Positions 161 to 26,423 of a stretch of DNA of 64,000 nucleotides are shown in pieces (positions within the stretch are counted from its first letter, which is position 1; each line of letters begins with the position of its first letter). The notes below the pieces were generated by a model. The model was not told where the DNA came from, made no database searches, and saw only the letters and a list, made by a program, of their open reading frames with translations. The position numbers and the translations under genes are program-made. The DNA comes from an uncultured Ruminococcus sp. GTDB taxonomy: Bacteria; Bacillota; Clostridia; Oscillospirales; Ruminococcaceae. Where the stretch lies: the NCBI RefSeq assembly GCF_946415235.1, contig NZ_CAMKRR010000001.1, positions 1 through 64,000 on the forward strand, in the 5' to 3' direction.

Positions 161-257
161 AAACACACCGATTTTGAAATCCATTTCAGTTTTTTCGGAA
201 AGGGAAAAATCAAAATTTCCGAAAAAGTTATCAGGCACTGAAGTGCATTTTGGAAGG

Positions 258-335
258 GAGCAAGCATAGCCTTTGTAAAGACACTTCGGCGGTTTCTGAA
301 GAAACTGTACTTGCTCTTTTGAAGGAGAGCAAGCA
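258..335. repeat. Short direct repeats GAGCAAGCA upstream of mobC
   Basis: GAGCAAGCA occurs at 258-266 and 327-335, each followed by a similar GCCT-containing stretch, and again at 785-793 at the very end of mobC. The stretch 241-456 holds no convincing gene. The repeats bracket mobC and could be relics of a transfer origin or the endpoints of a deletion that removed the relaxase. This is inference from position only. Confidence 0.35.
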
Positions 336-456
336 ACGCCTGTGTCATTACACTTTCGATTTTACAAGAAAAATCTCATCAAAGGCAGCAGACATTACTG
401 GGAGATTCCCAGACCCTTTTCGATGATGTTTATGATATTTTTCAAGGAGGGAAGAT

Positions 457-786
457 ATGGCAAACCGTGTAAGGAAACACATGATTAATTTCTATGTTGA
501 TGACGATGAACTTGCAGCTATCAGGCTGAAAATGAGCAAAATGAATATGACCAATCAATCGCTGTATATGAGAAAAATGGCTCTTGAAGGTCGTATCATA
601 AAAGTGGACTATTCCGTTTTCAATGATATCGCAAGTTCCATTTCCGGCGTATCAAGAAACATTAATCAGATAGCAAAACGTATCAATGCTACCGATAACA
701 TTTATGCAGAGGATATGCAGCAGATAGAACAGACTCAGGAGAATATATGGAAGTTATTGAAAAAGATACTTTCAAAACTTCTCTGA
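457..786 (+). CDS. mobC: MobC-like mobilisation accessory protein
   Basis: This 109-aa protein has an N-terminal stretch (residues 1-45) that fits a ribbon-helix-helix DNA-binding fold. A C-terminal region contains the MobC-type sequence SGVSRNINQIAKRINAT around residues 63-79. MobC proteins bind near the nick site of oriT and help the relaxase start DNA transfer. The start is set by a strong AAGGAGG ribosome binding site. The relaxase gene that normally follows mobC is absent; an integrase gene follows instead, so this looks like a leftover of a mobilisation module. Family assignment is good; activity is doubtful without a relaxase. Confidence 0.8.
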   Translation: MANRVRKHMINFYVDDDELAAIRLKMSKMNMTNQSLYMRKMALEGRIIKVDYSVFNDIASSISGVSRNINQIAKRINATDNIYAEDMQQIEQTQENIWKLLKKILSKLL

Positions 787-855
787 GCAAGCAGACATTG
801 TTGATCGACAAAAACTGGCAGTTGTCCTTTCCATGTAATTCACCAACTGCAAGTA

Positions 856-884
856 TTGACTTTAAAGTGTAAAAGTGGTATAAT
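856..884 (+). promoter_or_regulatory. Promoter of the integrase gene
   Basis: TTGACT (856-861) and TATAAT (879-884) are separated by exactly 17 bp. The integrase start codon with a GAGGAGG ribosome binding site is 46 bp downstream. Confidence 0.75.
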
Positions 885-929
885 CAGCGTGGAAAGGTAC
901 GCTGTAATATTATCGAGGAGGTAATTATT

Positions 930-2120
930 ATGGCCAGTATCACAAAACGAGGCGGCAGTTATCTTATCAAGGTAAGCTGCGGCTATAATTGCAAAGGCAA
1001 GCAGATGGTTCAGACTATTACTTGGAAACCTGAACCAGGAATGTCAGCTAAACAAATAGAAAAGGAGGTCAACAGGCAGGCTGTATTATTTGAAGAAGCC
1101 TGCAATCAGGGGTATCAGAGTTCGGCAGTAAAGTTTGAAGTGATGGGAGAAGAGTGGTTTAAAAACTATGCAAGGATAAATCTCAGAAAAACTACGGAAG
1201 AGAGAATGCGCCGTTTGTGTCCGAGAGTGTATTCTGCAATAGGTCATCTCCGCATGGATAAGATAACGCCGCGACATATTCAGGCGTTTATCAATTCGCT
1301 TTCCGAGAAAGGCGCCAATATGCTTAACGGAGAGCCGCTCTCACCTAAAACGATCAGACACTATCACAGCTTTATATCGGAAGTTTTTACGTATGGTGAA
1401 AGAATGGGAGTAGTCAGCGAAAATCCGTGCGAGAAAGTGATCCTGCCAAAGATACAATACACTGAAAAGCAGATATACACATCAGAGGACATACAAAGAA
1501 TACTGGTATTGCTTGAAAAAGAGCCGCTTCAGTTCAGAGTATTTTTCACACTGATGATATACAGTGGCTTCCGCCGCGGCGAAATGCTTGGTCTGGAGTG
1601 GAAAGATGTGGATTTCGAGAACAACATCATCAGTATAAGACGCACAAGCAACTATCTTAAACCCATCGGAACATACACCGATACGACAAAAACAAAGCGC
1701 TCACAGAGAACGCTGAAATTTCCCGAACAGATCATTGAACTTCTGAAACTTTACAAAGAAGAGCAGGATATGCAGGCGTTGAAGTTCGGTGATAAGTGGA
1801 TCGACAACGACAGGCTGTTTGTAAAATGGAACGGCGAACCTATGTATAACGGAATACCGTATTCGTGGTTCAAGAGATTCTGTGACCGGAATGATATACC
1901 GTTCCACGGGATCCATTCATTCAGGCACACCTTCGCTTCGCTCCTTGTCAATCAGGGAGTGGATATTGTTACGGTATCAGGAGCGTTAGGACATTCAGTA
2001 GTTTCAACAACGAGCAATATCTACTGTCATATGCTTGATGAAGCAAGGGCGAAGATCACCGAAGCTATCACTGCATCACTGGATTTTTCGGACAAAAAAA
2101 CAGAGCCACAAGGTGCTTGA
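930..2120 (+). CDS. int: Tyrosine recombinase / phage-type integrase
   Basis: This 396-aa site-specific recombinase would integrate or excise a mobile element. Residues 1-60 resemble the AP2-like arm-binding domain of Tn916-type integrases. Residues 60-170 form the SAM-like core-binding domain. The C-terminal catalytic domain shows the conserved Arg in SGFRRGEMLGLEWKDV, the HSFRHTFASLL box (H-x-x-R) and a late catalytic Tyr in SNIYCHMLDEA. All catalytic residues appear present and the length is normal, so it may be active. It has its own promoter and a hairpin at its stop codon. It sits beside a stand-alone mobC, suggesting an integrative mobilisable element whose other parts lie left of the window or were lost. 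Confidence 0.9.
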   Translation: MASITKRGGSYLIKVSCGYNCKGKQMVQTITWKPEPGMSAKQIEKEVNRQAVLFEEACNQGYQSSAVKFEVMGEEWFKNYARINLRKTTEERMRRLCPRVYSAIGHLRMDKITPRHIQAFINSLSEKGANMLNGEPLSPKTIRHYHSFISEVFTYGERMGVVSENPCEKVILPKIQYTEKQIYTSEDIQRILVLLEKEPLQFRVFFTLMIYSGFRRGEMLGLEWKDVDFENNIISIRRTSNYLKPIGTYTDTTKTKRSQRTLKFPEQIIELLKLYKEEQDMQALKFGDKWIDNDRLFVKWNGEPMYNGIPYSWFKRFCDRNDIPFHGIHSFRHTFASLLVNQGVDIVTVSGALGHSVVSTTSNIYCHMLDEARAKITEAITASLDFSDKKTEPQGA

Positions 2121-2133
2121 CCTATTGGCTCTG
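2101..2133 (+). terminator. Hairpin at the end of int
   Basis: CAGAGCCA (2101-2108) pairs perfectly with TGGCTCTG (2126-2133) and straddles the integrase stop codon. The 17-nt loop and the lack of a long T tract make it a weak intrinsic terminator candidate. Confidence 0.4.
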
Positions 2134-2208
2134 AAACGGTATATTGTTCGATTATTTAGTAAAGAACAAACAAAGAACAAATTGCATAAGAGCAAAATGT
2201 GAAATCAC

Positions 2209-2234
2209 GGGAATGGCTATATATAGCCATTCCC
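2209..2234. repeat. Perfect 26-bp palindrome
   Basis: GGGAATGGCTATA is followed immediately by its exact reverse complement with no spacer. It lies between int and the next minus-strand gene. It could be a recombination or regulator site, or a terminator between converging genes, although no T tract follows. Confidence 0.6.
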
Positions 2235-2253
2235 ACAGCTTAAAACTGTAAGA

Positions 2254-2273
2254 GGTACTCAAAAATGAGACAA
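2254..2273 (+). repeat. Left copy of a 20-bp inverted repeat (partner 29559-29578)
   Basis: GGTACTCAAAAATGAGACAA matches the reverse complement of 29559-29578 at 19 of 20 positions. The pair encloses the 27.3-kb stretch holding the restriction, recombinase, conjugation and defence genes. The orientation is inverted, so simple excision between them is not expected. Confidence 0.55.
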
Positions 2274-2305
2274 TTTAGTCGCTGTACTCGTTTAACTCAT
2301 TATAC

Positions 2306-2575
2306 TCATTTTACACGCATAATGTCTTGGTCTTGATCAATACTATCTTCTGACGACTTTGTATTCTTGAGTTGAATAGTTTGTAGTTCCTCTTCTTTTA
2401 CTGGTTTTCCCTCGTAAAAGTCCGCTCCATAAACTGGAGCAGTTGGTTTAACCCATTTGCCATCAATATATTCCATGACACGATAATCGCTACTAAGGCC
2501 GACAATTCGGTCGTTTTCAAGTTTTACGATACTTTCCATATGAGATTTCATTATTTGGTACTCTTTTGGAATCAA
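2306..2575 (-). CDS. Small protein coupled to the Mrr gene
   Basis: This 89-aa protein is not recognised. It begins inside the end of the Mrr-like gene with a 4-bp overlap, so the two are translationally coupled and probably work together. It has no membrane segment or signal peptide; the C-terminal third is rich in charged and Gln/Ser residues. A companion or regulator of the neighbouring nuclease is the natural guess from context only. Confidence 0.6.
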   Translation of the reverse strand: MIPKEYQIMKSHMESIVKLENDRIVGLSSDYRVMEYIDGKWVKPTAPVYGADFYEGKPVKEEELQTIQLKNTKSSEDSIDQDQDIMRVK

Positions 2576-3501
2576 GCTTCGAAATAGTCTGTATCGGCAA
2601 TATATGAAACTACTTCTTTAACCTTGAAGTTGTACTTTATCATTAGATCAATGAGTTTATTGCCATCAATTAGCGTAACCGGCGTTCCACCCGCACGAGA
2701 ACTTTCGATCGCGTCTTTAGAGTAATACGACGTCGTTATGAAGATTCCATAGTCTGCTCTATGAGTATCTACTGCGCCGCGTAAGTTGTTTATATCTGCA
2801 GAGCCGACTGGATTATCTCTGTATTTTTTGCATTGAATCGCAACGCGAGTAGTTTTTAGACTTTGCTCATCTAGACAATAAGCGAAACCGTCTATTCCTC
2901 CGTCTCCTGATTTGTTTATGCCTTTCACGAGATCTATGTCGAACCCCATTCTTTTTAATAAGCCTCGCGAGAATTGCTCGAACCTATATGGATTGAGATT
3001 TAGAATAGCTTCGAGGATATCATTGCGCCACCCCTGGCCAACTTCTTTTTCGAGGTCGCTAACGTCTTGTTCTCCAAGATCTTCAATCGTGCTTTCGTCT
3101 GCTTTTCTGTTTTTCCTCTCTTCGGCCTTCTTTTCCCAATAAGGTCGTGACTTGGCGTAGATATCCTGCTCGAAATTTATGGCGTTAGCGTCTATGTTAA
3201 GTCCGTCTGTAGTTAGCTTAATGGGCATATTGCGCCCATAAGTTAAGATTCCAGCAAGGGAAAGGTTTTTAAGTGCAAAATTGCGCCCAAACCAGTACGG
3301 AGTATACTTGTTGCCTTTTTCTGTTATTTTCGTGAAGTTAATTTCGTTTTCGGTGAAGTCCGTATATGACGGTATTAATTTATCTATTTGCGAAACGCCT
3401 TCTAGTTCTCCGCCGTTTTCCTGCAAGATTTTAATAATAGGAATAAAAAAGCTTTGCTCGTTCCTCAATGCCCTAATTCTTTCTTCTGATAGCTGATCCA
3501 T
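2572..3501 (-). CDS. mrr: Mrr-family type IV-like restriction endonuclease
   Basis: This 309-aa protein has an N-terminal winged-helix-like Mrr_N region (about residues 1-110), a charged linker, and a C-terminal PD-(D/E)xK nuclease domain. The nuclease motif is visible as GDGGIDGFAYCLDEQ followed by VAIQCKKYRDNP, giving the Asp and the Q-x-K catalytic signature. Mrr enzymes cut DNA carrying foreign methylation. The gene starts with ATG after a GAGAGGTA ribosome binding site and overlaps the next small gene by 4 bp. It is the leftmost defence gene of the island. Confidence 0.85.
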   Translation of the reverse strand: MDQLSEERIRALRNEQSFFIPIIKILQENGGELEGVSQIDKLIPSYTDFTENEINFTKITEKGNKYTPYWFGRNFALKNLSLAGILTYGRNMPIKLTTDGLNIDANAINFEQDIYAKSRPYWEKKAEERKNRKADESTIEDLGEQDVSDLEKEVGQGWRNDILEAILNLNPYRFEQFSRGLLKRMGFDIDLVKGINKSGDGGIDGFAYCLDEQSLKTTRVAIQCKKYRDNPVGSADINNLRGAVDTHRADYGIFITTSYYSKDAIESSRAGGTPVTLIDGNKLIDLMIKYNFKVKEVVSYIADTDYFEA

Positions 3502-3624
3502 GGATAATATTTACCTCTCAATTACGCTAGCACTTTATATAATTCTATCATGACAGAAAAGAATTAAGGTTTTACTATTTTAGCTCATGCTTGAAAATGT
3601 ATCCCAATATGCTAGTTTTTAGTT

Positions 3625-4389
3625 ATGGATACTAAATGGATTGTATTCTGGGCACTTTTTATTCCTGTGCTCATCTATAAGCCTATAAAGAAGGCTATTT
3701 CTTCTCGTGCGGATTTTAATCATAAACAACGAGCCATTCGATATAGTAAAGGGCTCGACAAAGTATGCTTAATAATTAGAGAAGATGCTCGTCTGTTTTT
3801 TGCTATGACTGATAGTAGGTGTAATACGCCTCTTTTTCATATTATTAAAGCTTATACTACTTTTGTTGATTGTTTTTATTCTTCCCTAGTTGAGATTTAT
3901 GGCGATAGCATTATGGGAATGCCTTCAGCCTTGAAACGATATTTTAATAATTTTGGTGTAAAGGTATATGAACATAAAAATAGCAAGTATCGTTATAAAT
4001 ATTCGGCTCGAATCTACGGGTTTATATTTGGGCTTTTACTAGTAAAGAATTCTACGGTGAAGCGCTGCGGAATTAATAGAAAAAAGGCAATTTCATTTTT
4101 ATCAAATAAAGTATTTTTAGGTGAATGTAATGAATATGCTACTAAGAGTTTTAACCGATGTTTACTGTATGTATCTGAATTAAACTCATTAGGCGAATCA
4201 AATGAAAAGTCCAAATACGAAATAAAAATAGCTGTTTCATTTTTAGGATTAAACGCAAAAGATCTTAATAAATATCATAATCTTGAAAGTGCATTAAGGA
4301 CTTCTTTTGCGACGGCGACACTTAAGGCATTGAACGAGATTGATACCTCAAGTATTGATGATTTAATAAGCGAAAAGTTCATTAAGTAA
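3625..4389 (+). CDS. Orphan protein with N-terminal membrane segment
   Basis: This 254-aa protein is not recognised. A hydrophobic segment near residues 5-19 (IVFWALFIPVLIY) could anchor it in the membrane, leaving a basic, mostly helical cytoplasmic part. It is the only plus-strand gene between int and 18.8 kb, is AT-rich relative to its neighbours, and lacks a good ribosome binding site, so expression is uncertain. A strong bidirectional terminator follows. Its place between Mrr and the recombinases suggests cargo of the element. Confidence 0.5.
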   Translation: MDTKWIVFWALFIPVLIYKPIKKAISSRADFNHKQRAIRYSKGLDKVCLIIREDARLFFAMTDSRCNTPLFHIIKAYTTFVDCFYSSLVEIYGDSIMGMPSALKRYFNNFGVKVYEHKNSKYRYKYSARIYGFIFGLLLVKNSTVKRCGINRKKAISFLSNKVFLGECNEYATKSFNRCLLYVSELNSLGESNEKSKYEIKIAVSFLGLNAKDLNKYHNLESALRTSFATATLKALNEIDTSSIDDLISEKFIK

Positions 4390-4390
4390 A

Positions 4391-4416
4391 AAGGCTCCGC
4401 AAAGAAACGGAGCCTT
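4391..4416. terminator. Bidirectional terminator between converging genes
   Basis: AAGGCTCCG (4391-4399) and CGGAGCCTT (4408-4416) form a perfect 9-bp stem with an 8-nt loop. It lies between the ends of the plus-strand orphan gene and the minus-strand recombinase gene. Confidence 0.8.
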
Positions 4417-4436
4417 ATTATGGCATCAATAGTCGA

Positions 4437-6029
4437 TTATTTGTCAGTTTTTTCATCAATAGAAATACTCATATCTGAGCCATCCTTGAATTGAAAACTT
4501 AGCTGGTTATCGGCGTAAATGGTTATTTTGTCTACAAAAGCATACCAAAGATCTTCGTTGAACTCTTCAATTATTCTATCGTCTGCTTTTAACGCGTCGA
4601 GATAAATAGCTATTTTTTCTTGTTGCGCTTTTATTGCGGCTATTTCGGTATTGAGTTCTGAGATTTCCTTTTCGATGGCTTGAAAGCGTAGCTCGGCTTC
4701 ATTAAACCTTTGGGTATAATCATCTTGGTTTTGTAGTCTGCTAGCATTTGAATCAACCAAATCCTTGAGAGCTTTATATGCTTCGTCGTATTCGGCTTCT
4801 TTGAATTCTAGCTTTTTCTCCAAAACCGATGTATCGATTAAGCTATTAATACGCTTTTGCGCCTTACTTATATATGCTTCTTTGTCTTCTATTAAGCAAT
4901 TGAATACTTCTATAAAAGCAACCTTTAGCTGTTCATCGCGAATATTTGGAGTTTTGCATATATGTTGGCCTTTATACTTTGAATTACAAAACCATATATG
5001 GCTTTTATATTTCGTTTTTGAATGCCAAACTTTGCGACCATAATAAGCGCCACAGTCCCCGCAGATGATTTTGTTCGAGAATGGCCCGGTATTCCTTTTG
5101 TGCTGATCTTTCCGTTTAGCGATTTCATTCTGCACTAAATCAAATACGGCAGGACTTATAATCGCTGGGTGTGAGCCTTCTATATAATACTGTGGTAATT
5201 GTCCGGTATTCTTTCCGCGCTTTTTATTAAGCCAGTCGACTGCATATGTCTTCTGAAGTAGTGCATCGCCTTTATATTTTTCATTCGATAGAATACTTAG
5301 TATTGTCCTTACGCGCCAGCACTTACCGTTCATTGGCGTAGGAATACCTTCTCTATCAAGAGTGTTGGCTATTTCGCGATATCCCATTCCCTTTAGGAAC
5401 ATGGAATATATTCTTCGAACAATTATAGCCTCTTCTTCGTTGATTCTAGGTTTACCGTCTTCGCCGCGTTCATATCCAAGAAAGCCTCTATAAGCCATGT
5501 ATACCTTACCGTCTGCCATACTTTTACGCTTGCCCCAGGTTACATTCTCGCTAATGGAACGGCTTTCCTCCTGTGCTATTGATGACATTATCGTAAGCAT
5601 GAGCTCGCCTTTAGAGTCCATAGAATAAATGTTCTCTTTCTCAAAATATACCTCGACACCTTTTTCCTTCAATTTCCTAATAGTTACGAGTGAATCTACG
5701 GTATTACGGGCAAAGCGAGAGATAGACTTAGTTAGTATGAGATCGATCTTACCGGCAAGAGCATCATCAACCATGCGCTTAAAGCCTTCACGATGTTTAG
5801 TATTAGTGCCAGAAATGCCTTCATCCGCATATATACCAGCAAATTCCCATTCTGGGTTGCTCTGAATGTAATTAGTATAGAAATTGACCTGTGTCTCGTA
5901 GCTAGACTGTTGCTCTTCCTGCTCAGTGGAGACACGGGCATATGCAGCAACACGTCTTTTACGCACAGTACCGTCCTTTTCCGATAGTAGCAATGACGGT
6001 TTCGCTTCAATCTTTCTAACGGTAGCCAT
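4437..6029 (-). CDS. Large serine recombinase (second of pair)
   Basis: This 530-aa protein has an N-terminal resolvase catalytic domain (about 25-170) with the nucleophilic Ser in AAYARVSTEQEEQ. A Recombinase domain (about 190-290) follows, then a zinc ribbon (CGDCG near residue 320 with a later C...C pair), then a long coiled coil and a C-terminal domain. Large serine recombinases integrate and excise elements at short att sites. It starts 2 bp after the stop of another recombinase gene, with a clear AAGGAGG ribosome binding site. A tandem pair resembles the ccrA/ccrB arrangement of SCC elements, where both genes take part in excision. Confidence 0.92.
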   Translation of the reverse strand: MATVRKIEAKPSLLLSEKDGTVRKRRVAAYARVSTEQEEQQSSYETQVNFYTNYIQSNPEWEFAGIYADEGISGTNTKHREGFKRMVDDALAGKIDLILTKSISRFARNTVDSLVTIRKLKEKGVEVYFEKENIYSMDSKGELMLTIMSSIAQEESRSISENVTWGKRKSMADGKVYMAYRGFLGYERGEDGKPRINEEEAIIVRRIYSMFLKGMGYREIANTLDREGIPTPMNGKCWRVRTILSILSNEKYKGDALLQKTYAVDWLNKKRGKNTGQLPQYYIEGSHPAIISPAVFDLVQNEIAKRKDQHKRNTGPFSNKIICGDCGAYYGRKVWHSKTKYKSHIWFCNSKYKGQHICKTPNIRDEQLKVAFIEVFNCLIEDKEAYISKAQKRINSLIDTSVLEKKLEFKEAEYDEAYKALKDLVDSNASRLQNQDDYTQRFNEAELRFQAIEKEISELNTEIAAIKAQQEKIAIYLDALKADDRIIEEFNEDLWYAFVDKITIYADNQLSFQFKDGSDMSISIDEKTDK

Positions 6030-6031
6030 AC

Positions 6032-7333
6032 TTAGACCTCCTTTTTCTTTTGCCTATTTTCTATGGCTTTCTGCCTAGCTGCCTCGCGCATTTCTTCAGT
6101 CCACGAGCAGCTCCTAGATCGATAACGCCAGGGGATAATATCTTTGCGTCCGTCTTTATAACGTAACTCTATGGTTTGATTATTATTTACAACTATCTTT
6201 TCAAGCCGTTCTTTCATAGTTACAAGAGACTCATCTTTCAGCTGTTCGGCTACCAAAGATGTAAGCATATCCTCTCGAATCTGCTTTGAATCGCAATACC
6301 CCCTGCCAAAGTCGTTATACGTCTTGCATATCCAGATATATTTGCCGCTATTCTTTCGTCTGCGCAGCTTTTCGCCACAGACACCACAATACAGAATCCC
6401 AGAGAATTCGTAATTATCATGAGGTGCCATATGTTTCTTATGAGTGCAGCTGCGTCGACCTATTTCCGCCTGAACCTCTTCGAATGTCTTTTCATCAATA
6501 ATCGCCTCATGGGCATCGATAACCTCATACATAGGCTTTTCTCCGTTGTTCATTACGGATTTCTTAGAAATATAGTCCTTATGATAGGTCTTTTGGAGCA
6601 GCAAGTATCCAGTATAGGCCTTATTCTTGAGCATTTCATATATTACAGCCGGTTGCCATTTCTTATCAAAGCGAGTCGGAACGCCTTCGTCGCGCAGGAT
6701 TTTAGCAATCTTAGTTACGCCAAGTCCGGATAAGTACATTTCAAATATGCGCTTTACGACCTCTGCTTCTGCCGGAAAAATCTCAAATTTTCCATTTTTA
6801 AGCCTGTATCCGTAATGATGGCAAGTGTTGGGTTGTCCATTTTCGAACATTCTCCTAATGCGCCATAGCTGATTTTCGCTCGCAGATCGCGCTTCTTCCT
6901 GCGCATACGAAGCTAGGAGCGTAATCATAAACTCGCCCTCAGAGCTTAAAGTATGGATATTTTCTTTTTCAAAATAAACGTCTATGTTTAGGAGCCTTAA
7001 CTCCCTAATGGCATTCAGGAGCGTCACAGTGTTACGCGCGAAACGGGTTATAGACTTTGTGAGTATCATGTCTATTTTTCCGTCACGGCTATCCTGCAGC
7101 ATTCGCTGGAAATCAGGACGCTCTTCTTTTGTTCCCGAAATACCTTCGTCTGCATATATCTCGACAAGCTCCCAGTTGGGATGCATAGATATATACTCGT
7201 TGTAGTAGCTTATCTGCGCCGACAAGGAATGAATCATAGAATCCTTACCGGTAGAGACACGCGTATATGCTGCAACTTTCTTTTTCGCTATCGTTGGTAT
7301 AATTCTAGATTCTATAACTTTTATCTTTGACAT
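6032..7333 (-). CDS. Large serine recombinase (first of pair)
   Basis: This 433-aa protein has a resolvase catalytic domain with the active Ser in AAYTRVSTGKDS, a Recombinase domain around residues 180-280, and a zinc ribbon with CGVCG near residue 315. It lacks most of the long coiled coil of its downstream partner and is about 100 aa shorter. The two share domain order but differ in sequence, so they are not a recent duplication. A strong AAGGAGG ribosome binding site precedes the ATG. Confidence 0.92.
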   Translation of the reverse strand: MSKIKVIESRIIPTIAKKKVAAYTRVSTGKDSMIHSLSAQISYYNEYISMHPNWELVEIYADEGISGTKEERPDFQRMLQDSRDGKIDMILTKSITRFARNTVTLLNAIRELRLLNIDVYFEKENIHTLSSEGEFMITLLASYAQEEARSASENQLWRIRRMFENGQPNTCHHYGYRLKNGKFEIFPAEAEVVKRIFEMYLSGLGVTKIAKILRDEGVPTRFDKKWQPAVIYEMLKNKAYTGYLLLQKTYHKDYISKKSVMNNGEKPMYEVIDAHEAIIDEKTFEEVQAEIGRRSCTHKKHMAPHDNYEFSGILYCGVCGEKLRRRKNSGKYIWICKTYNDFGRGYCDSKQIREDMLTSLVAEQLKDESLVTMKERLEKIVVNNNQTIELRYKDGRKDIIPWRYRSRSCSWTEEMREAARQKAIENRQKKKEV

Positions 7334-15236: not shown

Positions 15237-16664
15237 TTACATTTTTATCAGTGTTGGCTCTTCGATAGAACCTTCAATTTTATATATATCGTCGTCGCTA
15301 GCATCGATGTTTGCAAAGGCTTCAATAAGCCGACCTTCAATTACTGCCTTGAACGATCTTACGGTGAGGCTGTTCTCTGAAGATACTTCATCTATGATGC
15401 CTTGCATTACGCCCTTTGATATATAGCCGATACGGACGCCATATTCGAATCCAGTTTCAATTATTTGCTTTGCAAGTATTTTTGCCTTAGCCTCGTTGCT
15501 CAGGGGCTTATACTCAACAAAACCATGAAATCTACTGGCAATTTCTGCGAGGGTGCCATATTTAATAAACTCGCGGCGAGCTTGTTCGGTTTGTTTATAG
15601 ATGCGCTGAGTAATACTTTCTTCTATATCGACCGGCGCTTCTTCTTTCATATAAGCAACCTTAACAGCTCCGTCATCAAAGGAAATATCCTCTACGTCAT
15701 TAGAAATTGAGAAACCGATGGGGTTCTTTGGGGTATCCTGATTATCGCCGGATAATATATAGTTGCTAGTGAAGAAGAATATGCAGTGCTTAAAGTCGAA
15801 CTCGCGGCTTCCGTCAGGAAGTCTTGAGCGTGACGCGCATCTGCCTTCATCGAGTATAGCCATGAAAGTCTTTAGGACTTGTGGGTGAGCCTTATCTAGC
15901 TCATCAAAAATAAATACAGTGTAGGGATTATCGAGGACGGCCTCGAATACGGGCTTATCTTCGTAGCCGACATATCCGGGCGGAGAACCAATCAGTCTAT
16001 ATACCGTATGGGCTTCCGTGAAAGTATTCAGGTCTGTCCATACCGTTGCATATGTATGGCCGCTTTGCTTCGATAATATGCTCGCTAAACACTTGGCAGT
16101 TTCAGATTTACCTATTCCGGGCGGACCATATGCTAGTAGCGACAATGGTTTCTTAGGTCTTTTCTTCTTAGTAAATGCGGCTGTTTGGAAGCAGACCGTA
16201 TCTACGGCGTCGTCTTGGCCTATAATAGACTTCTTCATTTCCTTGCGTAGACTGCCGAAGGACAATGTTTGCTCAATGGCCTGTTCGGGCGGAATCGTTA
16301 TGTTGGACCAATCCGCGACTTCTGATTCTTCGTTAGATTCCCCAGAGCCTTCCGGCTCCGGAGAATCCTCCTTGAATTTTCGACAGAGCCTCACGAATGA
16401 AGCCCAATCCTTACTTGTGATCTGGTTGTACTTGAATAGCTTATAGAGTGACGGGTTATGTCCGCGATATCTTATGTCTTCATGGCAGTAGATAATATAG
16501 CTATCACCATCTGTTCCAATGCTTATTGTTGCTGTATTGGGTGTGCATACTTCCGGTAACTCACAGTCATCAAAAGTATAAACGCCTGGACTAGCAGAGT
16601 CGACTGCCGTCTTGAGGTCGTCAAAGTCTTCCTTGGGCGCTATAGAAAAATCCGTAATCTTCAT
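15237..16664 (-). CDS. ClpB-D2-like AAA+ unfoldase with unique N-terminus
   Basis: This 475-aa AAA+ protein has Walker A GPPGIGKSE near residue 180, the substrate-gripping pore loop SPPGYVGYED near 226, Walker B VFIFDELDKAHP near 252, and a C-terminal ClpB-D2-small-like lid. The GYVG loop is the mark of protein unfoldases of the ClpA/B/X type. The first 140 residues are not recognised and may recruit substrate. The start follows AGGAGGGG and overlaps the JAB-E1 stop by 4 bp. No ClpP-like peptidase is nearby. Being coupled to a JAB/E1 gene, it may unfold tagged proteins; that is inference. Confidence 0.85.
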   Translation of the reverse strand: MKITDFSIAPKEDFDDLKTAVDSASPGVYTFDDCELPEVCTPNTATISIGTDGDSYIIYCHEDIRYRGHNPSLYKLFKYNQITSKDWASFVRLCRKFKEDSPEPEGSGESNEESEVADWSNITIPPEQAIEQTLSFGSLRKEMKKSIIGQDDAVDTVCFQTAAFTKKKRPKKPLSLLAYGPPGIGKSETAKCLASILSKQSGHTYATVWTDLNTFTEAHTVYRLIGSPPGYVGYEDKPVFEAVLDNPYTVFIFDELDKAHPQVLKTFMAILDEGRCASRSRLPDGSREFDFKHCIFFFTSNYILSGDNQDTPKNPIGFSISNDVEDISFDDGAVKVAYMKEEAPVDIEESITQRIYKQTEQARREFIKYGTLAEIASRFHGFVEYKPLSNEAKAKILAKQIIETGFEYGVRIGYISKGVMQGIIDEVSSENSLTVRSFKAVIEGRLIEAFANIDASDDDIYKIEGSIEEPTLIKM

Positions 16665-18094
16665 ATCAGACCCCTCCTGGTATCTTTGATTCTGTCCTTG
16701 CTTTTCAGAAGGTTGCCCTCGCCGCCGCATAACGGGCAGTTATTGTTGGGCTCCTGCGGAATCCATACTGTACTGTCGCAGAACGCAAACTCCTTATCAA
16801 AAGCGTCATCAAAAATGTCGTTCTTAATTACGTTATCGAATGGCGTTATATTGATCTGAATGAAGTTGCGATCTGCTACGCGCTCAAGTATCTTGCCGTA
16901 TCGGCCTCTTTCGCAGCCATACTGGAGAAGCATTAAGCTTATCTGTCCGCATATAGCGTTTACGCGACCGGTAGAGAAGATTGTTGAGCATGAGCTGGTT
17001 ACATTATTATTAAAGCCATGTCTGTAGGCCTGATATCGAGATTCTGTAGCACATCTATGACAGCTTGCCGTTACGCCTGGGTACGAAAAGAATACTTCGG
17101 CGGCATCGCCATTTTTATACATCTGTGCCGATATGAAGGGAGTGCCGAACTTTACTGCAAGTGCTGCGGCTCTTGCCTGAGCATAGAAATCATCAGTAAA
17201 AGCAGCGATTAGGTAGTCCTCCGGGTGTTTCAATATACCCTTGCCAACCAAAGAAACAAACTCCTCGTCGGAAATACTATCATTAAGGCGACGCTGAATA
17301 GCCTTAACGCTTGCCGATGGATTGACATCAAGGATCTTCTCCTTGGCTACTTCGACTTTACCTTTACCTAAATTGGATATCTCTGCGTACTGGTTAGCGA
17401 TATTGGTGTCCTGATAGTAATCGTGATCGAATACTACATATTTCGATACGCCACATCGAGCCATGTCTACGTAATATAGCTGAGCTCCGCCGCAACCTAA
17501 CGCAACAATAGTCTTATTCTTCATTACGTCCATATCGATAGCTTGTTCGATTCTGTCGTATTTATGGCTAGTAATGCGTTCGTGGTCTGACTTTAGTTTA
17601 GGCTTAAGCTCCGTCTCGTAGTCTTCTACTACTTCATACAGGACCTCTTCAGTTTTCTTGTGCGATTTTCTTGGATATACTCTGAAAAAGCGCATATCGA
17701 GAGAGTTGCCTTTTCTTCTTTGTCCTACGCCAACATCGAAAAACGGAATGTAATATGCATCAATGATTCTTTTCGCATATTCCTCATCTGCGTCCGAATA
17801 ATAAGGGCAACCATCCGGGTGCGAGTGTACGATTCCTGTAACATACTTATCGCTTGCAATGGCTCTACCGATTTTAGGGCTCATTATTGCTGTATCGGGT
17901 GAGTAAGCAGCAGCTGAAGTGTTTGCGCTGAAGTCGTATATGAAGTCGTTGATGATTACTTTGTCGCCTTCGATATTAGATATTGTGTATCCGCCTTGTT
18001 CTGGAATCTGGGAACCGAGCGTCGCAATCATCTTCTCGAAGACTTCCTTTTTTATTCGTATTTTGGTTTTTGCCTTAGCTCTGCGGTTAAACAT
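16661..18094 (-). CDS. JAB/MPN protease fused to an E1-like ThiF adenylyltransferase
   Basis: This 477-aa two-domain protein begins with a JAB/JAMM metalloprotease domain (about 1-160) holding VHSHPDGCPYYSDADEE near 87-103, which matches H-x-H-x7-S-x2-D. An upstream Glu lies in PEQGG. The second part (about 190-477) is an E1/ThiF domain with ALGCGGAQLYYVD, the acidic FDHDYYQDTNIANQ loop, and Lys-rich SNLGKGKVEVAKEK. Cys pairs CHRC and CPLC suggest a zinc site, and further Cys residues could take a thioester. Such domains activate and remove ubiquitin-like tags. The start shares a TAATG overlap with the preceding gene. Confidence 0.88.
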   Translation of the reverse strand: MFNRRAKAKTKIRIKKEVFEKMIATLGSQIPEQGGYTISNIEGDKVIINDFIYDFSANTSAAAYSPDTAIMSPKIGRAIASDKYVTGIVHSHPDGCPYYSDADEEYAKRIIDAYYIPFFDVGVGQRRKGNSLDMRFFRVYPRKSHKKTEEVLYEVVEDYETELKPKLKSDHERITSHKYDRIEQAIDMDVMKNKTIVALGCGGAQLYYVDMARCGVSKYVVFDHDYYQDTNIANQYAEISNLGKGKVEVAKEKILDVNPSASVKAIQRRLNDSISDEEFVSLVGKGILKHPEDYLIAAFTDDFYAQARAAALAVKFGTPFISAQMYKNGDAAEVFFSYPGVTASCHRCATESRYQAYRHGFNNNVTSSCSTIFSTGRVNAICGQISLMLLQYGCERGRYGKILERVADRNFIQINITPFDNVIKNDIFDDAFDKEFAFCDSTVWIPQEPNNNCPLCGGEGNLLKSKDRIKDTRRGLI

Positions 18095-18432
18095 TAGAAT
18101 CCCTCCTTGTCTCGCAGTTCTCTGCAAACTTCGTCGAAGGGCCGTCCCGTATTTAACATTATCGAAGTGGTATCTGCCCACAACGAAGCTACAGCTTTGG
18201 CTTGTTCGAATGTGTTGATTAATCCGCCCCAACAGATATAGTCGTAATCCTCACCGGCATCATGTAGACGATGAGTGGCATGAAAATTTCTTCTGAGACG
18301 AAAACCGTAGCGAATATGATTAATAATATATATTCGCCATGTTCGGAGATCTGGGTAATAGCAGAATAGAAATTCATATCTCATTCTTCCGTCACTGCTC
18401 AGATACTCCATAGGGATGAATTGCTGTTCCAT
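18094..18432 (-). CDS. 112-aa protein, possible E2-like conjugating protein
   Basis: This protein is not firmly recognised. Its order of elements is strand-rich start (MRYEFLFCYYPDLRTWRIYI), then FHATHRLHDAGEDYDYICWGG, then the helix FEQAKAVASLWADTTS. A His-rich loop leading to an ICW cysteine (Cys67) recalls the HPN...C segment of E2 enzymes, and the position directly before a JAB-E1 fusion fits an E2. The similarity is by eye only. The ATG lies 7 nt after GGAGG, and that site sits inside a switchable hairpin. The stop overlaps the JAB-E1 start. Confidence 0.6.
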   Translation of the reverse strand: MEQQFIPMEYLSSDGRMRYEFLFCYYPDLRTWRIYIINHIRYGFRLRRNFHATHRLHDAGEDYDYICWGGLINTFEQAKAVASLWADTTSIMLNTGRPFDEVCRELRDKEGF

Positions 18433-18439
18433 GCGGAAT

Positions 18440-18473
18440 CCTCCTTTCGGAGGACGCCAAGAAGACGTCCTCC
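18440..18473 (-). promoter_or_regulatory. Mutually exclusive hairpins over a ribosome binding site
   Basis: In the minus-strand mRNA the segment from 18456 to 18449 (CGTCCTCC) can pair with the upstream GGAGGACG (18473-18466) in an 8-bp stem. Alternatively, its last five bases can pair with the GGAGG ribosome binding site (18444-18440) across a GAAA tetraloop. The first fold frees the site, the second hides it. This lies in the 64-nt gap after the 40-aa peptide gene. Confidence 0.5.
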
Positions 18474-18496
18474 TTGGCTATTTTTTGAGCTCCCTA

Positions 18497-18619
18497 TTAT
18501 CTGAAAGTTCCAGGAGGCAGCTCGCCCTGTCTGCCGCCTCTGAATGTGCCAGGGGGCAGCTCTCCCTGACGTCCGCCGCAGAAAGTGCCGTTCGGAAGCC
18601 AGTAAGTAAATCTTTTCAT
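18497..18619 (-). CDS. 40-aa tandem-repeat peptide, first gene of the JAB/E1 operon
   Basis: The peptide starts MKRFTYWLPNGTFCGGRQ and continues with the 13-residue unit GELPPGTFRGGRQ, then GELPPGTFR at the end. It is thus three copies of an L-P-x-G-T-F-x-G-G-R-Q type unit, the first degenerate. The last two DNA units (GGRQGELPPGTFR) differ at seven bases in 39, and every change is synonymous, so the amino-acid sequence appears to be under selection. AAAGGAG precedes the ATG. It is too short for a ubiquitin fold and probably disordered. It heads the operon of a possible E2, a JAB-E1 and an unfoldase, so a tag or substrate peptide is an attractive inference. Confidence 0.75.
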   Translation of the reverse strand: MKRFTYWLPNGTFCGGRQGELPPGTFRGGRQGELPPGTFR

Positions 18620-18653
18620 GACTTCTACTCCTTTCATACAAGACTAGAAGAAT

Positions 18654-18716: not shown

Positions 18717-18769
18717 TTTCTTTCCGTGCTTATATCATATCAGTTTTGTCTAAGATAAAAAATGTCAGA

Positions 18770-18794
18770 AATACTGACAATTTTTGTCAGTATT
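18770..18794 (+). promoter_or_regulatory. Inverted repeat before the STAND start codon
   Basis: AATACTGACA and TGTCAGTATT form a perfect 10-bp inverted repeat with spacer ATTTT. An additional TGTCAG at 18763-18768 can pair with the CTGACA of the left arm. It lies in the leader just before the AAGGGGGG ribosome binding site (from 18796), so it could be an operator or an mRNA stem controlling translation. Confidence 0.6.
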
Positions 18795-18808
18795 CAAGGG
18801 GGGACACT

Positions 18809-21244
18809 ATGACTGGGCCATTATCGCTATATGGACTCTTTTCGGATTTGATATATAAATATTGCAATACGAGCAGTAGCATGGTTAAGCTAATACTCGA
18901 AGTATTGTTGCCTGCCGGCTTAGAGTCGATAAATGTAGATGGATACGACATAATAGAACCTTACCGTCTAGATCCGAACCGCATCTATAAATTTCGAAAA
19001 TTTGGCGGCGTTCGTATCAATAAGAACATAATTGATGAATATAGAAAAAGTAGCGCCATAGAGCATTGCATCAAGCGATTTAGTAGTTTTTTACCCTCAG
19101 ACTTAAAAAAGCTATTCGAACTGAGGGATGACGTTTATTCGATTATGCCTATTGATACGTTCTCCGTACTTGGAAGAAAATACCTCGATTATCTCAAAAA
19201 CCATATATGTAATGACGAGGATGAGAGTAGGAAACAGGCTATAAAGCTAATCTCCTTGTGTTATATTTATTGCGTAGTGGAGCAAGAACCCATTTCCTGG
19301 TCCGATGAATATCAAAAAATTGAAGAAACAACTAAACATTGCGCGATTATAAATGCGCCTATTTTTAATAAGCGACATTTCATCGGACGCGAAGAAATAG
19401 TTAGTGATATTCAGGCTGCTTTTAATAAAGGTAATCGAGTAAACCTGTATGGCACTTCCGGCTGCGGAAAAACTCAAATTGCACTTAAAATTGCCTCATT
19501 ATTTGAGGAAAAACAATATGTTGTAGTTTGGTGCAATGCCTCAAGCGAAAGCACTTTATTACAGTCATACACATCTTTCCTTCACTCCGTTGGACGTGGT
19601 GAAGAAAAAATGAGCGCATATAGAATCGTTTTGCTTGTTAAGAATTGGTGTAAAGAAGTTAAAAACTGGCTTTTTATATTTGATAACTATATAAGCTATT
19701 CATTTGGAAATACTTTAAACTTCGAAGCCTTAATTCCAGACGGAAATGACGGAAGAATCTTATCAACATCACTAAAGTATGAGGATAGCCTCGAAACCGA
19801 AAACATTAAAATTTCGGCCTTTACGGATGAGGAATCAGCTAAATTTCTAAATACTCTTCTCCGTAGACCTATTTCTAGCGAGGATTGCTCATTATTATCT
19901 TTACGAATGGCTAACCATCCTCTAGCTTTGGCACAAGCAGTTGCTTATATTAATAAGAATAAGGATTTAAATATCGAACAATATATCGCCTTACTTAATG
20001 AGCAAGGACTTTCGTTTCATAGAAAGTCCGGAATTAGTTCCCATGAGGAAGCCGTATATTCTTCATTATTCCTATCTCTGAAACTAATTGGAGAACACTA
20101 TGGCACTATCGGCGATTATGCTTTTTTCTTCATGTTTGTTCTTTCGTTCTTCCCAGATTTTGGCATAACGGGTTTATTGTTGAATAGATGCTTTTATAGG
20201 CCATACGTTTTTAGCGGTGATAACTATGATTTGATAGACGGATATATTTCTCCATATTTTTATTCTAAAGCTGGACCTCTAGCTATTGATGCTAATGCAA
20301 AAAGAATTTTCGATAAGGTATTATTACCTCTCTATGATAAAAAAGAGTTCTATGAAATAATTGAGCTTTTATCTGATTTTGCATTATGTGAGGCCATCCA
20401 TGAAGAGGGATTTTGCCCGTATTACTACTTTAATGATATATCTTACGTAAGATCTCATGCTCTTGTATTAGAAATTATTCGGGAACGTGTTGTTACTCAA
20501 AAAGAATTCGAGGACCTTCTCGACACGACACTTTACACCGTTATAACATTTTTAGATCTAGCTTCAAATGCAAATAAATGCCTTTCTAATTATGGCGAAA
20601 TACTTAACTTAACTCCAATTTACTATATGACAGTGAAACGCTTAAAAAAGTATAGAGACAAATTTAATGATAATACAAGATTTCTTTTTAGAAGATGCCT
20701 ACTGTTTACGAGCACTCTGATTCAGATTACTACCAATCACTATATACAAGACTATACTAATAAATATATCGTTCCTGAGCAAAAATGGATATGGAATTAT
20801 ATTATAGACAATACACTACAATTCGAGAATGAGGCCTTTTTGTATATACGAAAGCTAGAATACTGTGCTCTTTTTGCGCCAAATTACTACCACGATTCTA
20901 TAAATGCATTAAAAGACGCGCTACTGTTTTGGTATGGCAATATCGCCGATTCAGATTGGGAAGAATTGGTAGGACTATTTGCATACAATAAGGCAGCGGA
21001 ATTTAGGGACTTTATTTATGATGTATTAAATCAGCTATATGAGAATTCCACGAATGTCAGCCGAATTCAGGCTCCTAGTTTTGGAATAGTTTGCGTGCTT
21101 GATGATTTTACTATTTCGGAAATAAAGAAAGCATTTGCGGCAGCAGGAATGAAATACGATAATATCAATTTCGTAGATAATTCTGATAATTTTTTATTCT
21201 TTTCATGTCCAGACAACTATTATCCAAACTATTTTACATATTAA
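18809..21244 (+). CDS. STAND-class NB-ARC-like NTPase
   Basis: This 811-aa protein has an unrecognised N-terminal region (about 1-180). The linker HFIGREEIVSDIQ leads into a P-loop NTPase domain: Walker A YGTSGCGKTQIA near residue 214, Walker B WLFIFDNY near 287, and a later MANHPLALAQAVAYI block (GLPL-like motif). The rest is helical without clear repeats. STAND proteins act as sensing switches, and many bacterial ones are antiphage proteins. The ATG at 18809 follows a strong AAGGGGGGAC site; an upstream in-frame TTG has none. It is divergent from the JAB/E1 operon and next to a type I restriction system. Confidence 0.8.
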   Translation: MTGPLSLYGLFSDLIYKYCNTSSSMVKLILEVLLPAGLESINVDGYDIIEPYRLDPNRIYKFRKFGGVRINKNIIDEYRKSSAIEHCIKRFSSFLPSDLKKLFELRDDVYSIMPIDTFSVLGRKYLDYLKNHICNDEDESRKQAIKLISLCYIYCVVEQEPISWSDEYQKIEETTKHCAIINAPIFNKRHFIGREEIVSDIQAAFNKGNRVNLYGTSGCGKTQIALKIASLFEEKQYVVVWCNASSESTLLQSYTSFLHSVGRGEEKMSAYRIVLLVKNWCKEVKNWLFIFDNYISYSFGNTLNFEALIPDGNDGRILSTSLKYEDSLETENIKISAFTDEESAKFLNTLLRRPISSEDCSLLSLRMANHPLALAQAVAYINKNKDLNIEQYIALLNEQGLSFHRKSGISSHEEAVYSSLFLSLKLIGEHYGTIGDYAFFFMFVLSFFPDFGITGLLLNRCFYRPYVFSGDNYDLIDGYISPYFYSKAGPLAIDANAKRIFDKVLLPLYDKKEFYEIIELLSDFALCEAIHEEGFCPYYYFNDISYVRSHALVLEIIRERVVTQKEFEDLLDTTLYTVITFLDLASNANKCLSNYGEILNLTPIYYMTVKRLKKYRDKFNDNTRFLFRRCLLFTSTLIQITTNHYIQDYTNKYIVPEQKWIWNYIIDNTLQFENEAFLYIRKLEYCALFAPNYYHDSINALKDALLFWYGNIADSDWEELVGLFAYNKAAEFRDFIYDVLNQLYENSTNVSRIQAPSFGIVCVLDDFTISEIKKAFAAAGMKYDNINFVDNSDNFLFFSCPDNYYPNYFTY

Positions 21245-24641: not shown

Positions 24642-26423
24642 CTATTTGGCTTTTTGGTTCTCGAAAGCGGTTATCATATCAGAAAGGTTCTTAATGAACC
24701 ACTTGATTTGCATTTTCTGTATTTTATCATATTTATTATATTCTTTAAGGCCACTAACGGCTTCATGGATTGTCTTGAGTGCCGTTAGGTCTTCTTCTAC
24801 TATTTGAGAATAGTGTACATCCCTATACAAATCCATAAATAGGGAGCGAATTCGACTTATAGTTTCTGAAGAGCATTTCTTAAGCATAGATATAAAACGA
24901 TTCACATCTATGTTATTAGCAAAACCATTTTTTCTAAGCATTTGTTTGGCAGCACTAGTTAGATTTTTGCAGTATTCTTTTATTGCAATAGGAGAGTAAG
25001 GGAAATCTTCCTGCTCATGCACTCCTGTTAGTGCTTCCTGCATCCTACGTTTAATCTGTTCGAAGTATTCAATACCATCTTTATTGAAAAGTGTATAACC
25101 CGAACTGAATAGAGACTCGAAGTCAATGTTTTCGTCTATCGTTTTTAGACTATCAATCATCGGGTTAGTTATGTTTTCAATATCAAATTCTATTTCGGCA
25201 TCGTATTTAATAGCGACGATATAATTAGCAAGAATTCCATAATCATAATACGGAATAGAGCCGTTCTTTATCTTATCAGGGATATTAGCAAGAGCTTTCT
25301 TTGTTTTTTCTTCCGTGCTAACATGATACTCTCGTATAGCCTGAAGATCCTTGTCTCTTCCTGAATTCCATTTTCCTTTTTTCATATAATCCGTGTAATA
25401 TGAAACCGATTTCTTGATCTCTTCTTCTGAAATGATCTGATAGGCTATGTAGTCATAGCAAAAGCGGAATAAAGGTAAACTGTCATTTACTCCTAAGCTC
25501 CCAGACAAATAGGCTTTTGTATCAAATCTGAGATCTGAACTCTTACTCTGCCTTTGCGTAAATGCGATGACACCATAAAAAATCATTTCCTCTATTTTCT
25601 CATTAACGGTGATGCCATGATCGGAAATAAATTCAAAGATATCTTTGCACTTTTGGCAGCCATAAATAAAAGCTCTCAAATTATATGAATTCAATCTCGT
25701 GAAGACATTGACTATATCATCCGCTTGTGTTTCAGTATTGAATTTACTAAGATAAATACCGAAGTTTCCAATAATGGTTTGTATAGCGGTTTTAAAGTCG
25801 CAGACAAAGCATATTGTATCTCCAACAGTCTTTTCTTTGACTCGTTTGTATGCAATTGCGGATTCGGTATAATATTTTACAGCTTTTCCTTCGCTATTAG
25901 TTCCGTCGTATGTTGTTAGTAGTTCATCTTCATTTGTGATAAGTAGAACTTTGGCATGATCATTTTCGCAAAGATTATTAATGTATCCAAGCAGCTTAGT
26001 AATCTCAATTTGAGTTCTTTCAATATCTTCAAGAATAATGAGCGTATCTGAAAGATTTATGGACTCATATAGCTGTTTCAATGTTTCTTCACTAGGATTC
26101 TCAATATCGAAACCTATTTTGCTTGCTGCTGCATTTAGAAGAGTTTTACCAATTACTTTTGCTGTGTTTTTGGCAGGAGATAGTTTTTTTATAACTGGGT
26201 GAAGTTCAAGGAAAATAGCTTTGCTTATTTCAGTCGTATCAGAAAGGCCGTATAAGGAAACGATTACGCATTTCTTATTTTTCTTTACAAGATAAGGTTT
26301 TAACTCGTTTTTTACATAGTGGCTTTTTCCTGATCCCCATTCGCCGGAAAGCATAATAGCTCTACCGGTAATATCATTTTTTAGATAATTGAGTAAAAAG
26401 CTATTAAGCTCGTCGTAAGTCAT
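24642..26423 (-). CDS. KAP-like P-loop NTPase inserted in the hsd operon
   Basis: This 593-aa ATPase has Walker A LSGEWGSGKSHYV at residues 25-37 and Walker B LIILEDIERTQ near 148, followed by LLITNEDEL. The GEWGSGKS form and following LYGLSDTTEISKAIF suggest the KAP family or a close relative. No membrane segments are seen. The C-terminal 350 residues are helical and unrecognised. It starts inside the hsdS stop codon (TAATG) and precedes hsdR, the same slot in which the anticodon nuclease PrrC occurs in some type I systems. It is not PrrC by motif. A backup defence role is inference. Confidence 0.75.
   Translation of the reverse strand: MTYDELNSFLLNYLKNDITGRAIMLSGEWGSGKSHYVKNELKPYLVKKNKKCVIVSLYGLSDTTEISKAIFLELHPVIKKLSPAKNTAKVIGKTLLNAAASKIGFDIENPSEETLKQLYESINLSDTLIILEDIERTQIEITKLLGYINNLCENDHAKVLLITNEDELLTTYDGTNSEGKAVKYYTESAIAYKRVKEKTVGDTICFVCDFKTAIQTIIGNFGIYLSKFNTETQADDIVNVFTRLNSYNLRAFIYGCQKCKDIFEFISDHGITVNEKIEEMIFYGVIAFTQRQSKSSDLRFDTKAYLSGSLGVNDSLPLFRFCYDYIAYQIISEEEIKKSVSYYTDYMKKGKWNSGRDKDLQAIREYHVSTEEKTKKALANIPDKIKNGSIPYYDYGILANYIVAIKYDAEIEFDIENITNPMIDSLKTIDENIDFESLFSSGYTLFNKDGIEYFEQIKRRMQEALTGVHEQEDFPYSPIAIKEYCKNLTSAAKQMLRKNGFANNIDVNRFISMLKKCSSETISRIRSLFMDLYRDVHYSQIVEEDLTALKTIHEAVSGLKEYNKYDKIQKMQIKWFIKNLSDMITAFENQKAK

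Follow-up and report, generated by a model that had tools for sequence, protein, structure and literature searches.

A tandem-repeat peptide encoded with an E2-fold protein, a JAB-E1 fusion and a Clp-type unfoldase in an uncultured Ruminococcus: a candidate modifier without a ubiquitin fold

Introduction

Positions 1-64,000 of contig NZ_CAMKRR010000001.1 (NCBI RefSeq GCF_946415235.1) from an uncultured Ruminococcus sp., a gut bacterium, a stretch of 64,000 nucleotides referred to here as the window, carry a minus-strand operon of four closely spaced genes that encode a repeat peptide, an E2-fold protein, a JAB-E1 fusion and an AAA+ protein. The peptide gene is under selection at the protein level, it heads the same set of four genes (peptide, E2-fold protein, JAB-E1, Clp-type unfoldase) at every related locus recovered, and the operon travels as cargo on a conjugative element that is itself rare. 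Known E1/E2 pathways work with folded ubiquitin-like modifiers. We slightly favor the view that this operon encodes a bacterial ubiquitination-like pathway in which the peptide, produced as a precursor of several copies, takes the part of the modifier without having a ubiquitin fold. The fuller proposal, of a complete E1-E2-deconjugase pathway that has its own Clp-type unfoldase and whose modifier is a peptide of about 13-16 residues cut from a tandem precursor near glycine pairs, is offered tentatively, as somewhat short of an even prospect.

The repeat peptide and its conservation

The first gene of the operon translates as MKRFTYWLPNGTFCGGRQGELPPGTFRGGRQGELPPGTFR, made up of two LPxGTFxGGRQGE units and a terminal LPPGTFR. 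A preliminary description of this DNA had counted three units, which is correct for the LPxGTFx core, whereas GGRQGE follows only two of the cores. The ATG is preceded by AAAGGAG, and purine-rich sites stand before all seven complete peptides known from this and related loci; a longer frame from 18637 is unlikely because its start falls before this Shine-Dalgarno-like sequence. No match for the peptide was found in Pfam, NCBIfam or PHROGs, and the array escaped a default search for DNA repeats.

Two copies of GGRQGELPPGTFR (residues 15-27 and 28-40) differ at 7 of 39 bases, in six codons. Our recount agrees with the preliminary description that every one of these differences is synonymous, including CGT against AGA for arginine. 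When seven random changes were placed in one copy (n=200,000, with equal base-change rates assumed), all seven were synonymous in a fraction of 6.5e-5. By contrast, the first and second LPNGTFCGGRQGE units are separated by six synonymous and two non-synonymous codons. Pooled within-array comparisons (eight pairs from four loci, not independent of one another) gave proportions of synonymous (pS) and non-synonymous (pN) differences of 0.60 and 0.06, so that change within arrays is mostly synonymous, contrary to the non-synonymous drift that the preliminary description had named as refuting its idea. Between far relatives the unit does change (pN 0.31 between the window and locus L008).

Queries with JAB-E1 recovered seven further loci, so that, counting the window, a related JAB-E1 gene is known from eight distinct loci. 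The equivalent small frame anticipated upstream of such genes lies directly before gene 2 at all eight, complete at seven and cut by the contig end at L011, whose contig starts within the peptide and retains its end, LPIGVFC. A frame of at least 25 residues with the core L[PD]xG[TVI][FW], a pattern composed after the peptides had been seen, was present upstream of the E2-like gene at 7/7 loci tested and in 0-2 of 2000 dinucleotide shuffles per locus.

The loci originate from IMG/VR (L004, L011), uncultured Clostridiales RUG460 (L005), uncultured Ruminococcus (L006) and genomes of the family (L007, L008, L009). JAB-E1 identity to the window is 96-97% for L004, 96% for L005 and 73% for L006, falling to 38%, 35% and 32% for L007, L008 and L009. 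Peptide length ranges from 27 to 72 residues and repeat copy number varies: L005, like the window, encodes 40 residues, L006 encodes 53 with one extra unit, and L008 encodes 72 with the cores LDGGTWC and LDSGTWC, while the peptides of L004, L007 and L009 are MKRHTYWLPDGTFRGGRQGELPPGTFR, MRKLSFLPVGIFNGGREGQELPSGVFC and MKKRDDIISRVNAGSKGGSSESQDTDFTRSLPPGTFRNS. The seven complete peptides end in R, R, R, R, C, I and S. It is plausible that peptides of 27-72 residues, rich in glycine and proline, do not adopt a ubiquitin fold.

JAB-E1 was detected in 3/396 genomes of the family at 1e-20 (own genome included, with two loci in one genome) and in 1/4 and 1/16 genomes of the genera that host L007 and L008. 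At the strict cut-offs used for the order (1e-40; 1/394 genomes) and the class (1e-30; 1/391), which weaker relatives would escape, only the own genome was found, and plasmids and phages held no JAB-E1 relative at E 1e-5. An E2-like profile matched 2/247 family genomes, both of them operon-bearing. The peptide itself, used as a query, matched 2/125 genomes of the genus, exactly those that hold the JAB-E1 operon, and 6/8 chosen records, each time at an operon; the two misses were genome G1179, in which the JAB-E1 search was also empty, and the truncated L011 record. Among the best 80 of 446 viral relatives of the unfoldase, the best match was the L004 contig, and in a plasmid tblastn search with the unfoldase and the element's TraG no record reached 80% coverage.

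Operon layout and partner enzymes

Coordinates are collected in Table 1. The stop of gene 2 overlaps the start of gene 3 (TAATG), and genes 3 and 4 overlap as well (ATGA). According to the open-frame listing, the window operon has no space for any further gene, and no ubiquitin-like gene is present in it. Downstream of the peptide stop, the stretch up to gene 2 is more stably folded than its dinucleotide shuffles at six of seven loci (z -2.9 to -4.4); strong folding is absent from L008 (z +0.8), and the hairpin sequence is not common to different lineages.

Table 1. Features of the operon in the window
Feature	Coordinates	Strand	Basis
P0001, gene 1, 40-residue repeat peptide, proposed multi-copy modifier precursor	18497..18619	-	translation; homologous peptides at 8/8 loci
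Shine-Dalgarno-like AAAGGAG of the peptide gene	18628..18634	-	sequence
Pair of adjacent predicted RNA hairpins in the gap from the peptide stop to gene 2; the GGAGG before gene 2 lies within the second hairpin	18438..18478	-	folding z -4.0
P0002, gene 2, 112-residue E2-fold protein with invariant Cys67, His51 and His54	18094..18432	-	predicted structure, alignment
P0003, gene 3, 477-residue JAB-E1 fusion (JAMM peptidase and E1-like adenylation domain)	16661..18094	-	profile matches, fold
P0004, gene 4, 475-residue Clp-type AAA+ unfoldase with GYVG pore motif and IGF loop	15237..16664	-	profile matches, alignment

The enzymes had been read from the sequence as a possible E2, a JAB-E1 fusion and an unfoldase, and the possible E2 gains support from its fold, whereas the JAB-E1 fusion and the unfoldase are confirmed. 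The predicted structure of gene 2 has an E2 fold; its best structural match is the E2 of a CdnG-E2 complex, it also matches the Bub-pathway E2 (9eae_C), and Cys67 is invariant in 5/5 aligned sequences. A search of BFVD gave no significant match to the model. Gene 3 carries Prok-JAB (residues 30-118) and ThiF (189-371) in Pfam and joins a JAMM peptidase to an E1 resembling MoeB, ThiF and UBA5, with profile matches to BubCD (9ea4, distant at 1.2e-4) and, through its E1 part, to Cap2; the fold matches listed for it are E1 entries only and barely cover the JAB half. A cysteine between its two zinc pairs (C370 in the window; alignment column 411) is replaced by N and G in L008 and L009.

Gene 4 has ClpA as its best NCBIfam match (1.3e-33), with ClpB and ClpC as its best matches in the PDB, and carries PPGYVGYE. 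Its IGF aligns with the AGF of S. aureus ClpC, and an [IVL]G[FL] loop is present in all five aligned rows (IGF/IGF/IGF/LGF/IGF), with G and F invariant. In Clp unfoldases, an IGF-type loop docks on ClpP. About 115 residues precede the matched part of gene 4 and, as a guess, could bind a tag.

Proposed mechanism

If the peptide is the modifier, the JAB domain would separate the units of the precursor by cutting near their intervening glycine pair, the E1 domain would adenylate the freed C-terminus of a unit, and Cys67 of the E2-fold protein would accept the unit and hand it to proteins, from which the JAB domain could also remove it. Less surely, the AAA+ protein may recognize the tag and use its IGF loop to pass tagged proteins on to host ClpP, in the manner of Mpa with Pup, and the hairpin may keep the peptide in excess over the enzymes. 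Two registers of cutting can be envisaged. Cutting after GG would leave FxGG, like the end of ubiquitin, and cutting before GG would leave TFR or TWC, which resemble the natural ends; L008 and L009 would in that case lose two extra residues. The L009 peptide favors LPPGTFR as the essential core and speaks against GG as a universal signal.

Comparison with known systems and alternative explanations

The nearest arrangement is that of the polyUbl operons (row 6e) of Iyer, Burroughs and Aravind (2006), which consist of a multi-copy modifier, sometimes a stand-alone E2-like protein, and then a JAB domain N-terminal to E1 (PMC1779556). The gene order matches, and the Pfam domains of gene 3 likewise place a JAB domain ahead of an E1-like part. 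There the modifier has one to three beta-grasp domains, each 70-75 residues long, and the cysteine is missing from the E2-like domain (PMC1779556). The operon described here instead has peptide units of about 13 residues and no beta-grasp gene, an E2-like protein with an invariant cysteine, and a Clp-type unfoldase in addition.

The Bub pathway, with BubB and BubCD, is named in PMC13373217. Gene 2 has an E2 fold in common with it (9eae_C), and gene 3 has the distant profile match to BubCD. The modifier of the Bub pathway is the ubiquitin-like protein BubA; no BubA-like open frame is present in the window operon, which also adds an unfoldase. A likeness to Cap2/Cap3 and CdnG-E2 of the type II cyclic-oligonucleotide-based antiphage signaling systems lies in the best structural match of gene 2 and the E1 profile match of gene 3, but Pfam and PADLOC reveal no CD-NTase among the four operon proteins. 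Pup is a short and probably unfolded tag with a dedicated AAA+ unfoldase, Mpa, and is joined by PafA rather than by E1/E2 enzymes. A short, probably unfolded peptide with nearby glycines and an AAA+ protein of its own recalls the Pup-Mpa-proteasome system, yet the four operon proteins have no PafA-type match in Pfam or NCBIfam and no proteasome gene was seen in the operon. Membership in the known ubiquitin-like families fails on the modifier, and the operon therefore encodes at most something that works like them. A search of the open-access literature, whose coverage leaves out the main Bub papers, met no description of such an operon.

Microcin C provides the model for the foremost alternative: a short peptide gene (mccA) is followed by a hairpin and then by the gene of an E1-like enzyme (MccB) that acts on a C-terminal asparagine (PMC6495379), and the mccA-mccB hairpin is paralleled by that between the peptide and gene 2. 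By analogy, the peptide would give rise to a small molecule that is modified and acts as an antibiotic, toxin or signal, in a pathway like those of ribosomally synthesized and post-translationally modified peptides, the E1 working like MccB or PaaA, the JAB domain releasing the units and the remaining proteins serving modification or self-protection. We consider this unlikely. Peptides here end in R, C, I or S and none in asparagine, and a JAB domain (at the N-terminus of the E1-like enzyme), an unfoldase and an E2-fold protein are added, the last of these unexpected in such clusters; no transporter gene was noticed directly beside the operon, although no dedicated search was made.

It is less probable still that the peptide is a non-covalent ligand, namely a pseudosubstrate, inhibitor or adaptor that controls JAB-E1, E2 or the AAA+ protein, with another protein as the real modifier. 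The core LPxG[TVI][FW] is the best conserved part, the C-terminus is not conserved, and unit number varies freely, all of which would suit a ligand; the GG-separated repetition, by contrast, suits a precursor that is cut, and the operon contains no other modifier gene.

It is very improbable that the modifier is a ubiquitin- or ThiS-like protein from another place in the host genome and that the peptide has a side role. Two more weak E1-type matches in the own genome do suggest that the host has sulfur-carrier systems. Against this, the module occurs in several genera with its peptide and, as far as the operons themselves were inspected, with no beta-grasp gene, and L022, the 11.4 kb contig of L008, carries the module even with no conjugation genes beside it.

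PPG is a known ribosome-stalling motif, and its presence in the peptides of the window, L004, L005, L006 and L009, together with hairpins after the stop, one of them over the ribosome site of gene 2, would fit a leader whose repeat translation controls the downstream hairpin and enzyme expression; as PPG is absent from L007 and L008, a stalling leader was rejected as the principal explanation, and with no strong hairpin in L008, hairpin sequences that differ by lineage, and a reading frame of up to 72 codons with changing copy number, regulation by such a leader has very little probability.

Mobile element and neighboring genes

Downstream of the operon lie MT-A70, TraG/VirD4-like and Replic_Relax genes (Pfam). 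At loci with flanks, the module stands between conjugation genes and varying defense genes. Related elements exist that lack it, and L022 has it with no adjacent conjugation genes, so it is cargo. A core role in the element was considered and rejected: in five of five IMG/VR contigs (L040-L044; TraG 55-62% identical and upstream sequence available), MT-A70, TraG and Replic_Relax are present and the three operon enzymes were not found at E<=1e-4. These contigs, filed as viral in IMG/VR, have other cargo where the module would sit. L039 and L045 are the contigs of L004 and L011 and carry the operon enzymes, and L046 has no upstream sequence. TraG was found in 3/125 genomes of the genus (1e-100), namely the own genome, G1249 (with the operon) and G1179, and in one of 164 family genomes (1e-60), the own. 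In G1179 it is a lone 1.25 kb fragment (L031, 2227-3481), 98% identical to the window's TraG, perhaps an element relic or an assembly error.

The defense neighbors are type I restriction genes in the window, L004 and L023, and type III restriction genes in L006. In L005, the RUG460 copy, the region upstream of the operon (161-3614 and 3665-6491) encodes Gabija (GajA/GajB) together with a type II restriction system. Among the type I restriction genes of the window, a P-loop protein (24642-26423, minus strand) matches the PADLOC candidate PDC-S49 (1.9e-50). Its location on a mobile element, with restriction-modification and Gabija genes as neighbors, suggests with less certainty that the operon serves defense or rivalry between elements.

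A divergently transcribed large ATPase with weak STAND/NB-ARC matches lies beside the peptide in the window (18746-21244, plus strand), L006 (6593-9370) and L021 (7081-9210), and the divergent neighbor in L005 (6630-9230) is homologous to it; identity among window, L005 and L006 is 27-28%. This ATPase could work with the operon as its sensor. Another protein takes its place in L004 (4324-5301, 325 residues, weak Vps16_C match) and in L023 (11280 region, a homologue of 355 residues). The HsdR proteins of L004 and the window are 99.9% identical and their JAB-E1 proteins 96-97%, yet L004 has a different divergent gene and a shorter peptide, so that the stretch beside the peptide is exchanged as a cassette.

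Conclusions

As the operon is a compact unit of four genes, the question of tagging can be tested directly. If the proposal is true, an E1/E2 pathway that uses a short repeat peptide would reveal what such enzymes really need, and it would represent a further origin of peptide tagging besides Pup and SsrA, with a very small conjugation tag on offer. A mobile element would then carry a reconstruction of ubiquitin-proteasome logic with a minimal tag at its center.
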